Of a stretch of 37,809 bases of DNA, positions 10,640-14,411 are shown piece by piece; within the stretch, counting starts at the first letter, position 1; each line of letters opens with the position of its first letter. The stretch comes from Sulfurospirillum sp. (lineage in GTDB: Bacteria > Campylobacterota > Campylobacteria > Campylobacterales > Sulfurospirillaceae), in contig JAJOKG010000050.1 of NCBI GenBank assembly GCA_021206415.1, positions 1 to 37,809 on the forward strand, in the 5' to 3' direction. Position numbers and translations under genes: made by a program. The notes under the pieces are model-generated. The model was given only the letters and a program-made list of their open reading frames with translations, had not been told where the DNA came from and did no database searches.

Positions 10640-11399
10640 ATGGCAATTACCATTAAAAAAAGCGCAAGAAATTGCAAAGCTTTCTGATGCGAATAGAATT
10701 GTTGCCAAAACATTAGAGTATCTTACATGTAACATTCATCCTGGCATGAGTTTGAAAGAGCTAAATGCCATGGGTGAAGCTTACATTCAGAGCCATGGTG
10801 CTCGTCCTGCTTTTAAAGGTCTTTATGGTTTTCCTGCTGGTGTTTGTACTTCTGTGAATGAAGTAATTATTCATGGTATACCAACAGACTATAAACTTCA
10901 AGAGGGTGATATTGTTGGCATGGATATTGGCACAGAGCTTAATGGTTGGTATGGCGATTCTGCTGTAACAATTGGTGTTGGAAAAATATCTCAAACAGAT
11001 GAATCATTGATAGCTTGTGCTAAAGATGCACTTTATTATGCGATAGATATTATTCATGCTGAAATGCGTTTTAAAGAGTTAAGTTATGCAATAGAACAGT
11101 TTATTCTTTCAAAGGGATATGTTCCTTTAAGAGGCTTTTGTGGTCATGGCATTGGTCGAAAGCCACATGAAGAGCCAGAATTACCCAATTATTTAGAAGG
11201 TAATAATCCCAAAAGTGGTCCTAAAATAAAAAATGGTATGGTGTTTTGCATTGAACCAATGATATGTCAAAAAGAAGCAACACCGAAAATTTTAGACGAT
11301 AAGTGGTCTGTTGTCTCAACAGATGGGTTAAGAGGAAGTCACTATGAGCATACGGTTGCAATCATAGATGGCAAAGCAGAGATTTTGTCGCTATCTTGA
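10640..11399 (+). CDS. map: methionine aminopeptidase, type I (frameshift near the start)
   Basis: This metallo-enzyme removes the initiator methionine from new proteins. The start is the ATG at 10640 (MAITIKK). An A7 run at about 10654-10660 needs one base fewer to continue [21 protein letters not shown] into the ORF listed from 10746. Ligands and catalytic residues are visible: the histidine of VNEVIIHG, the aspartates of [30 protein letters not shown], and the glutamates of FCIEPM and YEHTVAI. Restored length is about 252 residues, normal for type I. One TTACATGTAA palindrome lies at 10723. infA follows. Confidence 0.93.
10723..10732. repeat. TTACATGTAA palindrome in map
   Basis: A perfect 10-base copy, read in map as Leu-Thr-Cys-Asn. 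It is the only copy inside the 14-kb ribosomal cluster, and it lies in map rather than in a ribosomal-protein gene. Confidence 0.9.
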
Positions 11400-11415: not shown

Positions 11416-11634
11416 ATGGCAAAAGATGATGTAATTGAAATTGATGGAAAAGTAATTGAAGCACTTCCAAATGCTACATTTAAAGTTGAAGTGCAAAATA
11501 GTCATGTGATTTTGTGTCACATTGCTGGTAAGATGAGAATGCATTATATTAAGATAATGCCAGGTGATACAGTAAAAGTTGAGTTGACCCCGTATAGTTT
11601 AGATAAAGGGCGTATAACCTATAGGTATAAGTAA
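11416..11634 (+). CDS. infA: translation initiation factor IF-1
   Basis: The start is the ATG at 11416 behind AGGAGG, giving 72 residues from [24 protein letters not shown]; the ORF track extends upstream into map. The S1/OB fold has the expected [29 protein letters not shown] and ends [10 protein letters not shown]-1 occupies the A site during initiation. Downstream come a -10-like box and a structured leader before rpmJ, so infA may close one transcription unit. Confidence 0.97.
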
Positions 11635-11653
11635 ATTATTAGTTTAATTTATG

Positions 11654-11659
11654 TATAAT
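11654..11659 (+). promoter_or_regulatory. -10 box of a possible internal promoter before rpmJ
   Basis: TATAAT lies 138 bases before the rpmJ start, with no clear -35 hexamer. Campylobacterota promoters often have a poor -35, so this is plausible. Start of transcription just before the structured leader would make sense of that leader; this is inference. Confidence 0.5.
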
Positions 11660-11673
11660 TAACCCCTTTTGTA

Positions 11674-11774
11674 AAACTGTGTGAAGAATAATCGAAAAAA
11701 GACCACTGTTTTTTCGATTGTTGGTTTGGCAAACGTCGTCAAACCTGTGACAGTTTAACTCAAAATTCCAGTGG
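11674..11774 (+). promoter_or_regulatory. structured leader before the alpha-operon genes, candidate pseudoknot
   Basis: The 163-base gap between infA and rpmJ has four pairings. AATCGAAAAAA (11690-11700) pairs with TTTTTTCGATT (11709-11719) around the 8-base loop GACCACTG. GGTTTG (11723-11728) pairs with CAAACC (11740-11745). AAACTGT (11674-11680) pairs with ACAGTTT (11750-11756) around both. The loop bases CCACTG (11703-11708) pair with CAGTGG (11769-11774), just before the rpmJ ribosome binding site, which would make a pseudoknot. E. coli regulates its alpha operon by S4 binding a pseudoknot in front of rpsM. Here similarity is in location and type of fold only; the ligand is unknown. No T run follows, so it is not a simple terminator. 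Confidence 0.55.
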
Positions 11775-11796
11775 AAAAAAAAGTTCAGGAGTCACA

Positions 11797-11910
11797 ATGA
11801 AAGTACGACCTTCTGTAAAGAAGATGTGCGATAAATGTAAAGTGATTAAACGAAAAAATATCGTTAGAGTCATTTGCGTAAATCCAAAACATAAACAGAG
11901 ACAAGGATAA
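11797..11910 (+). CDS. rpmJ: 50S ribosomal protein L36
   Basis: Too short for the ORF track. The 37-residue product reads [37 protein letters not shown]-like sequence, with the zinc ligands C11, C14, C27 and H32 of the zinc-binding L36 type. It follows an AGGAG ribosome binding site at 11787-11791. L36 is a small late-assembly protein of the large subunit. rpsM begins two bases after its stop. Confidence 0.95.
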
Positions 11911-11912
11911 TC

Positions 11913-12281
11913 ATGGCAAGGATTGCAGGTGTAGACCTTCCAATGAAGAAAAGAGTAGAGTATGGTTTGACATACATCTATGGTATTGGTTTAACAAGTT
12001 CTAGAGCTATTTTAACAGCTACAGGAATTTCGTTTGATAAGAGAGTTCATGAGCTAAGTGAAGATGATGTTGCTGCGATTCGTAAAGAGATTCAAGCAGG
12101 TTACCAAGTAGAGGGTGATCTTCGTAAGAAAGTAGCGATGGATATTAAAGCTTTGATGGATATGGGAAGTTATAGAGGTCTTAGACATAGAAAAGGCTTG
12201 CCAGTTCGTGGTCAAAAAACAAAAACGAATGCGCGTACTCGAAAAGGTAAAAAACGCACCGTTGGCGCAAAAGCTAAATAA
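11913..12281 (+). CDS. rpsM: 30S ribosomal protein S13
   Basis: The 122-residue product starts [26 protein letters not shown] and carries the conserved [28 protein letters not shown]13 lies in the small-subunit head, where its basic tail contacts the P-site tRNA. It is intact, two bases after rpmJ; rpsK follows after 21 bases with its own ribosome binding site. Confidence 0.98.
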
Positions 12282-12302: not shown

Positions 12303-12695
12303 ATGGCAAAAAGAAAAGTAGTACGTAAAAAAGTTGTTAAGAAAAATATTGCGAAGGGTATTATTTATATCTCAGCAACATTTAATAACACTGTCGTAAC
12401 TGTAACTGATGAGATGGGAAATGTTATTGCTTGGAGTAGTGCAGGTAGTTTGGGCTTCAAAGGGAGTAAAAAATCAACTCCTTATGCTGCACAGCAAGCT
12501 GTAGAAGATGCTCTTACAAAAGCAAAAGAACATGGTCTCAAGGAAATCGGTATTAAAGTTCAAGGACCTGGCAGTGGTCGTGAAACAGCGGTAAAAAGTG
12601 CTGGTACAACAGAAGGTATTAAAGTCTCTTTCTTAAAAGACATTACACCTCTACCACACAATGGTTGTAGACCTCCAAAAAGAAGAAGAGTATAA
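12303..12695 (+). CDS. rpsK: 30S ribosomal protein S11
   Basis: The 130-residue product contains [44 protein letters not shown] and ends [18 protein letters not shown], the S11 signature at the platform of the 30S subunit near the E site. It is complete. A 75-base AT-rich gap separates it from rpsD and shows only a weak hairpin (ATAAA/TTTAT) and an AGGAG ribosome binding site. Confidence 0.98.
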
Positions 12696-12770: not shown

Positions 12771-13397
12771 ATGGCAAGATATAGAGGACCAGTCGAAAAG
12801 CTTGAAAGAAGACTTGGTGTCAGCTTAGCCCTTAAAGGTGAGCGCAGACTTGCTGGTAAAAGCGCATTAGATAAGCGACCATATGCACCAGGTCAACATG
12901 GACAAAGAAGAGCAAAAATTAGTGAGTATGGACTTCAATTAAGAGAGAAGCAAAAAGCTAAATTTATGTATGGAGTTTCTGAAAAACAATTCAGACGTAT
13001 TTTTGACGAAGCAGCAAGAAAAGAAGGCAATACAGGTATTAACTTAGTGCTTCTTATTGAAAGAAGACTTGATAATGTTGTCTATCGAATGGGTTTTGCT
13101 ACAACCAGAAGATTTGCTCGTCAGTTAGTCACTCATGGTCATATATTAGTGAATGGTAGTAAAGTTGATATCCCTTCCTATATTGTACGTGCAGGTGATA
13201 AAGTTGAGGTTTGTGAAAAATCTAAAAATAATCCTCAAGTTAAAAGAGCACTAGAGTTAACACAACAAACTGGTATAGCTCCATGGGTTGATGTTGAAAG
13301 AGAAAAAGCAATGGGTATTTTTACACGAATCCCAGAGAGAGAAGAAGTAGTTATTCCGGTTGAAGAAAGATTAATCGTTGAGCTATACTCTAAATAA
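12771..13397 (+). CDS. rpsD: 30S ribosomal protein S4, cysteine-free form
   Basis: The 208-residue product starts [23 protein letters not shown] and lacks the N-terminal zinc cysteines of the C+ form. It contains the S4 RNA-binding domain with [31 protein letters not shown]4 nucleates 30S assembly and, in several bacteria, represses its own operon by binding leader RNA, which makes it the natural suspect ligand for the structured leader at 11674-11774. It is complete; rpoA follows 15 bases later. Confidence 0.97.
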
Positions 13398-13412: not shown

Positions 13413-14411
13413 ATGAAAAAAATCAATACATCAGCTTACATGCCAACTGAGATTGAGGTCGAAAATATTTCGGCAAATAAAGTTCAAATTAGTGCATATC
13501 CATTTGAATCTGGTTTTGCTGTAACATTGGCCCATCCTTTACGAAGACTTCTTTTAAGTAGTACTGTAGGATCGGCACCGACGGCTGTAAAGATTGAGGG
13601 CGTAACCCATGAATTTGATAGCATGCGTGGTATGCTTGAAGATGTTGCTCTTTTTATTATTAATCTTAAAAATATTCGCTTTAAAATTAAAGGCGATGAG
13701 AAACGTATAGAAGTGAACTACTCTTTTTCTGGACCACGGGAAATTAAAGGAAGTGATCTCGCTAATGCACAGGTTGAAATTGTTACCCCAGATACTTATT
13801 TGGCAACAATCAATGAAGATGCAGAGCTTAATTTTTCTTTGATTCTTGAAAAAGGAATTGGTTACGTTCCAAGTGAAAATACACGAGATTTAGTGGGTGA
13901 TGATTATATTGCACTCGATGCTTTTTTTTACTCCTGTTAAAAGAGCTGTTTATGATATAGAGAATGTTTTAGTTGAAGATAATCCAAATTATGAAAAAAA
14001 TTGTTTTTACAATTGAAACAGATGGACTTGTCTCTCCAATTGAAGCGTTTAAAAATTCGCTTGAGGCTATGTACGCTCAGATGTCAGTATTTAATGGTAT
14101 CTTAGATATAGCCGTTATTCCAAAGAGTGAAAGTTCTAATGAAGATGTTGAACTTGGAAAACTACTACAAAAGTGTTGAGGAGTTAAATCTCAGTGCGCG
14201 TAGTTTTAATTGTTTAGATAGAGCAGAGGTTAAGTATATTGGCGAACTTTCTCTTATGAGTGAAACAGAGTTGAAAGACCTTAAAAATCTAGGCAAAAAA
14301 TCGTTAGAAGAGATCAGACAAGTCATGGAAGAGAGTGGTTATCCAGTAGGGTATAACTTTTCTGAAGAGACAGCAAGTTTGCTCAAGAAAAAAATGAGAT
14401 TAAATTACTGA
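13413..14411 (+). CDS. rpoA: RNA polymerase alpha subunit (three apparent frameshifts)
   Basis: Alpha dimerises to start polymerase assembly, and its C-terminal domain binds DNA and activators. The N-terminal domain is clear ([31 protein letters not shown]). It runs to LDAFF, then a T8 run at about 13922-13929 breaks it. [23 protein letters not shown] follows, then an A7 run at about 13994-14000, then IVFTIETDG, then a break at CAAAAG near 14170. The C-terminal domain follows ([21 protein letters not shown] and [12 protein letters not shown]). One base too many at each point explains everything. Restored length is about 331 residues. The break must be a reading error because the gene is essential. 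Confidence 0.94.

Follow-up and report, generated by a model that had tools for sequence, protein, structure and literature searches.

In the window, a 37,809-nt stretch of Sulfurospirillum sp. DNA, the alpha operon is headed by a pseudoknotted RNA leader that recurs across the Campylobacterota. The leader structure is real, as phylum-wide covariation excludes chance. Judged from sequence, it is almost certainly a regulatory switch through which a ribosomal protein restricts its own synthesis. S4, the product of rpsD in the same operon, is the likely ligand, an assignment drawn from operon content and precedent. A preliminary description of this DNA had proposed a separate Campylobacterota version of ribosomal protein autoregulation. 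At the sequence level this proposal is well supported by the covariation, the position at the alpha operon and the lack of a match to the Alpha_RBS family.

The leader is located in a 162-nt gap between infA (11416-11634) and rpmJ, which starts at 11797. All leader and operon features given below are on the + strand. The RNA is predicted to fold as a three-way junction closed by P1, in which helices P2 and P3 abut and a GAAG strand connects P1 to P2. Pairing of the P2 loop with a sequence just downstream of P1 would yield a pseudoknot whose end is about 22 nt upstream of the rpmJ start codon. P1 is the 7-bp enclosing pairing that had been described, formed by AAACTGT (11674-11680) and ACAGTTT (11750-11756). 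In the alignment, its two strands covary: all six counted pairs show two-sided changes, and 84.7% of cells are paired. The unpaired junction strand J1/2, GAAG (11683-11686), is nearly invariant (G in 55/62, A in 62/62, A in 62/62 and G in 60/62 sequences). The perfect 11-bp stem of the preliminary description (11690-11700 with 11709-11719) is present, but it is only the inner part of P2: The helix comprises 14 bp (11687-11700 with 11709-11722), because flanking AA/UU pairs are found in every sequence and covary to G-C. The two outer pairs are AU/AU, GU, GC or GC/AU in 84 of 84 aligned sequences, with the compensated forms GAAGAG/CU and GAAGGA/UC. Eleven of the 13 aligned P2 pairs carry two-sided changes, and 96.1% of cells are paired. 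The second hairpin, P3, was also found as described. Its 5' strand GGTTTGGC (11723-11730) begins with an invariant GG followed by covarying pairs and is paired in 96.4% of cells; column counts and covariation define the 3' strand GTCAAACC (11738-11745). The 3' strand of P2 abuts P3 with zero linker. This suggests coaxial stacking, and P2 and P3 are probably stacked in this manner within the three-way junction. Ribosomal protein leaders that bind their protein typically have a conserved unpaired strand within a junction, and the near-invariant GAAG is a probable protein contact.

The P2 loop CCACTG (11703-11708) is an exact complement of CAGTGG (11769-11774), as had been noted. Loop and complement are conserved together: 98.8% of cells are paired with 11771-11774 over four aligned pairs. 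CAGTGG ends 22 nt before the AUG. It had been placed immediately in front of the rpmJ ribosome binding site (RBS); it is indeed upstream of this site, but at a distance of 12 nt from the Shine-Dalgarno sequence AGGAG (11787-11791), which is about 90% AGGAG in the alignment (columns 177-181). The window folds with a z score of -3.7 compared to dinucleotide shuffles, none of which (0/200) folded as well. Its minimum-energy fold contains P2 and P3 and lacks P1 and the pseudoknot; in place of P1, TGTGAC (11746-11751) pairs with GTCACA (11791-11796) at the rpmJ RBS.

Compensatory changes in the four pairings were sought in an alignment of 62 sequences (A3), into which the pseudoknot was written for the covariation counts, and all four helices covary, with two-sided changes in 23 of 28 pairs. 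A first MAFFT alignment, which misplaced the 3' half in some rows, served solely as model seed. In A3 with the pseudoknot, 93.9% of cells are paired vs. 75.8% in shuffles; including the two outer P2 pairs, the values are 94.3% and 77.3%. Two-sided compensated cells amount to 245 compared to 66 in shuffles (0/500 shuffles as high) and the covariation score to 0.445 compared to 0.141; the shuffle comparison ignores relatedness, so these figures are not probabilities, and the changes are spread across families and many pair types. Upon sliding by 1-3 columns, pairing falls to 33-50%. The leader is therefore a conserved structured RNA with covariation, one mark of ribosomal protein leaders; another, the location in a 5' UTR, agrees with its position directly upstream of rpmJ wherever this was checked.

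To survey the phylum, the alpha operon was located by way of S13, which was found in 297 of 298 Campylobacterota genomes. G105, a nearly complete genome of family f12, gave no match in this search. Family f1 is the Sulfurospirillum family of the window (S. cavolei, S. diekertiae) and f3 the Campylobacter family (C. showae, C. majalis, C. portucalensis); f2 appears to be Helicobacter-like, f7 Arcobacter-like, f8 Sulfurimonas-like, f4 Sulfurovum-like and f5 Nautilia-like. The covariance model R1 matches 139 of 298 genomes, including members of f4, f7, f9, f10 and f11. By a tally made by hand for each family, a single strong copy per genome is present in 18/18 f1 and 101/101 f3 genomes sampled. 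In G200 and G255, the R1 matches are not near alpha-operon genes and were discarded as chance. A second model, R2, adds f13, f15, f17 and f18. The leader was observed in front of rpmJ in f15 and f17; f13 and f18 are represented by the model match only. A credible R1 match was found in 0 of 89 genomes of f2, and a renewed search of 39 of these with R2 and looser filters gave three chance-level matches, none near alpha-operon genes. Weak model matches in Helicobacter-like genomes (E 0.014-0.09) were likewise distant from these genes and rejected as chance. The leader seems to have been lost in this large family. Seven f2 genomes (L043, L045, L135, L138, L143, L146, L154) have short infA-rpmJ gaps of about 60-125 nt with no trace of a leader. 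When 84,980 prokaryote species were scanned with a stringent pattern, which would miss divergent forms outside Campylobacterota, 22 records were obtained, all but one titled Campylobacterota. The exception is a 'Proteobacteria bacterium' MAG with an S13 98% identical to that of Sulfurospirillum.

The pseudoknot is the cleanest case of covariation because the search model R1 (P1, P2, P3) was built without any pseudoknot pairing. Among the 62 sequences, its outer pair is C-G in 41, G-C in 14, U-A in three and A-U in two. Besides CCACTG/CAGTGG of the window, the variants CCACTT/AAGTGG, CCACTA/TAGTGG, CCGCT/AGCGG (L069), TCACTT/AAGTGA (C. majalis), GCATTT/AAATGC (L026), GGCACT/AGTGCC (L107) and TTACAC/GTGTAA (L102) were found. 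Of 70 loops in five families, 67 are matched downstream by a complement of at least five bases (14.9 expected) and 45 by one of at least six bases (3.6 expected). The f7 strands are quite different (TTTGTG/CACAAA), occur in some members only, and the downstream strand adjoins the RBS; here, complements of at least five bases were counted in 10 of 14 loops vs. 4.7 expected. In f8 and f5 leaders, the pseudoknot complement was not above chance. By inspection, these families, which neither R1 nor R2 detects, appear to keep P1/P2/P3 with GAG...YUGG...CC. P1, P2 and P3 are present and the downstream loop complement is absent in L046-L048, L129, L136, L151 and L155 (f8) and in L163 and L164 (f5); P1 comprises about 12 bp in the f8 leaders. 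It is possible that such pseudoknot-less leaders represent an ancestral or reduced form.

Just upstream of the leader, the window carries an extended -10 promoter element, TGTATAAT (11652-11659). In 14/14 parsed f1 leaders, an exact TATAAT precedes the P2 loop by 46-48 nt, and it stands near this distance in most f7, f9 and f5 leaders. Hexamer matches are common in control windows, too (104/194), so it is the constant spacing that constitutes the evidence. This spacing makes it probable that a separate transcript begins with the leader. At the other end, the pseudoknot of the compact f1, f3, f4 and f9 leaders terminates mostly 18-25 nt before the AUG, and P3 length and linkers vary; the parser used selected another complement in L052 and was unsuccessful for a few f4 leaders, in which it mis-set P3. 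At most loci examined for RBS position, the pseudoknot ends about 9-12 nt before AGGAG, and most leaders do not include the RBS in the pseudoknot. With this spacing, the knot would lie against the upstream edge of a 30S subunit during initiation. An intact pseudoknot about 75-430 nt before the rpmJ AUG was observed in L109, L110 and L050 (f9), L032, L116 and L120 (f11), L034 (f10) and L193 (f17). In L050 and L193, short repeats (for example AGAAGGC or CTCATTGCC) make up the additional sequence, as though the switch had been separated from its gene by insertion of a repeat.

Downstream of the leader, rpmJ (L36; 11797-11910), identified as an ORF with homologues at the same position, is the first gene under the proposed regulation. 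It is followed by rpsM (S13; 11913-12281), which begins 2 nt past the rpmJ stop, rpsK (S11; 12303-12695) and, as fourth gene, rpsD (12771-13397) for the proposed ligand S4, the latter two recognised from their ORFs and homologous loci. The ORFs of rpoA (13413-14411), frameshifted in the present assembly, and rplQ (L17; 14431-14781) complete the set. The spacing between rpmJ and rpsM amounts to 2-6 nt in 81/81 loci checked, and rpmJ-rpsM-rpsK-rpsD are contiguous in 79 of 81, the exceptions being one contig end and one out-of-place secY match. No terminator-like site was found in the leader, and a transcription attenuator was rejected for this reason. The absence of such a site from the leader together with the tight rpmJ-rpsM spacing favours translational control and coupling.

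The leader does not correspond to a known RNA family. With Rfam 15, whose families include S4 leaders, it was unmatched at gathering score in the window and in 20 representative loci. The comparison with Alpha_RBS (RF00140) that had been suggested gave no match in the leader region even at permissive E values up to 10, and RF00140 matched 0 of 41 Campylobacterota genomes; the E. coli positive control was found. Two permissive Rfam matches in the region were unrelated and sub-threshold and were rejected. The S4 leader of the E. coli alpha operon shares with ours a pseudoknot at the start of the operon, the translational logic proposed here and the S4 gene downstream. However, its fold and sequence are different, and its knot comprises the rpsM RBS, whereas the knot described here stops about 22 nt short of the rpmJ AUG and, in the window, upstream of the rpmJ RBS. 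The predicted S4 leaders of Clostridia and Fusobacteriales also precede rpsM-rpsK-rpsD-rpoA-rplQ operons (Eckert and Weinberg, 2020; PMC7247131), but belong to other phyla and have GAAA or GUAA motifs, in contrast to the Campylobacterota leader, which precedes rpmJ and has a pseudoknot. According to a 2024 review (PMC10931766), the Bacillus subtilis rpsD leader mediates S4 autoregulation as well, but is a non-pseudoknot RNA on a stand-alone rpsD gene, and the E. coli rpsO (S15) leader uses a pseudoknot for ribosome entrapment, but differs in gene, ligand and fold. Eckert and Weinberg (2020) list S4 leaders in Gammaproteobacteria, Firmicutes, Clostridia, Fusobacteriales, Bacteroidia and Flavobacteria; their main text mentions neither epsilonproteobacteria, Campylobacter, Helicobacter nor rpmJ. 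Similarly, neither rpmJ nor the leader is mentioned in the main texts, supplements aside, of the Campylobacter TSS-map, transcriptome and Ribo-seq/translatome literature. The leader would represent a new structural class of ribosomal protein leaders, with an earlier description in subscription papers or supplements being possible.

The mechanism that we favour and consider rather probable is that the S4-bound junction and pseudoknot block or trap rpmJ initiation and that the downstream genes are repressed by coupling. When ribosomal proteins are in excess over 16S rRNA, S4 would bind the junction and stabilise the pseudoknot. The protein-bound fold would then be positioned at the 5' edge of the 30S subunit during initiation, so that rpmJ initiation is blocked or trapped, and the tightly spaced downstream genes would be repressed via translational coupling. 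Simple occlusion fits poorly for several f9, f10, f11 and f17 genomes, since their pseudoknot is about 75-430 nt before the AUG. S4 is favoured since every leader with full downstream sequence precedes an rpsD-bearing operon, and because S4 is, according to PMC7247131 and PMC10931766, an experimentally established regulator of the alpha operon or rpsD in Gammaproteobacteria and Bacilli (E. coli and B. subtilis) and the predicted ligand, by the same reasoning, for four other leaders of rpsD-carrying operons. The same RNA and logic could serve another operon product, S13, S11, L36 or L17. The leader adjoins rpmJ and always precedes the genes for all these products alike, and nothing in its sequence singles out S4. 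Mimicry of the S4 site in 16S rRNA had been suspected, as GAAGAA presumably recalls helix 16 of E. coli 16S rRNA. In a sequence comparison, the likeness of the conserved 10-mer with the GAAG junction to the relatives' own 16S rRNA was no better than to shuffled 16S; sequence mimicry was thus undetected and is not used as support for S4. Still, a ligand other than S4 appears rather unlikely: Neither L36 nor S11 is known as a repressor. Moreover, S4 is the repeated solution for rpsD-operon leaders in other phyla (PMC7247131). Slightly more doubtful is the view of a leader class ancestral to much of the Campylobacterota, in which some families lost the pseudoknot, a large Helicobacter-like family lacks the entire leader, and the ligand is a different product of the operon, for instance S13 or L36, which are not known autoregulators.

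An S4-independent translational element, i.e., a constitutive pseudoknot acting without feedback as standby site, mRNA stabiliser or RNase shield near the promoter, would suit the -10 element directly upstream, which puts the leader at the very 5' end of the mRNA, and a role in stability fits the long spacers of some lineages and the missing pseudoknot in f8 and f5. We regard it as improbable, as the near-invariant unpaired GAAG and the tight pseudoknot-AUG spacing suggest recognition and a link to initiation, and the pseudoknot leader was found on the alpha operon only. Least of all do we expect a two-state switch in Sulfurospirillum, in which UGUGAC/GUCACA covers the RBS when P1 is open and a ligand on P1 and pseudoknot frees or hides it. 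Although this pairing belongs to the minimum-energy fold and RBS accessibility is 0.43 in its ensemble vs. 0.97 downstream of the formed pseudoknot, it is limited to one genus (g1), shows no covariation and is absent in the other f1 genera and in f3. The RBS-sequestering stem was rejected as a general mechanism because of this restriction; in g1, it may be a lineage-specific second state, alternative to P1.

Control of the alpha operon has been worked out mainly in a few model bacteria. In the sections available, the 2024 review states that epsilonproteobacteria retain an E. coli-like alpha operon and does not describe its regulation in them (PMC10931766), and the 2020 survey of ribosomal protein leaders gives none for the Campylobacterota lineage (PMC7247131). 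For the phylum to which Campylobacter belongs, the leader is a concrete candidate that can be tested, and it would be a further unrelated RNA solution to probable S4 autoregulation. How such switches arise or disappear could be studied in the natural series provided by families that lost the pseudoknot or the entire leader.

The window is part of a 2.09-Mb draft genome, in whose assembly no 16S gene was found. Among named records, a closest match is 'Campylobacterales bacterium Zod_Metabat.1333', with 96% identity to the window across 8 kb. Compared to the 96%-identical locus L189, single-base indels were observed at 10661, 13922, 13994, 14169, 15376, 15458 and 16070, in most cases with one base more in the window. 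At 10661, 13922-14169 and 16070, they fall where the ORFs of map, rpoA and a murE-like gene are broken up or begin late, and hence look like draft-assembly sequencing errors, not true pseudogenes. One extra A compared to L189 is present at 11782, between the pseudoknot and the RBS.
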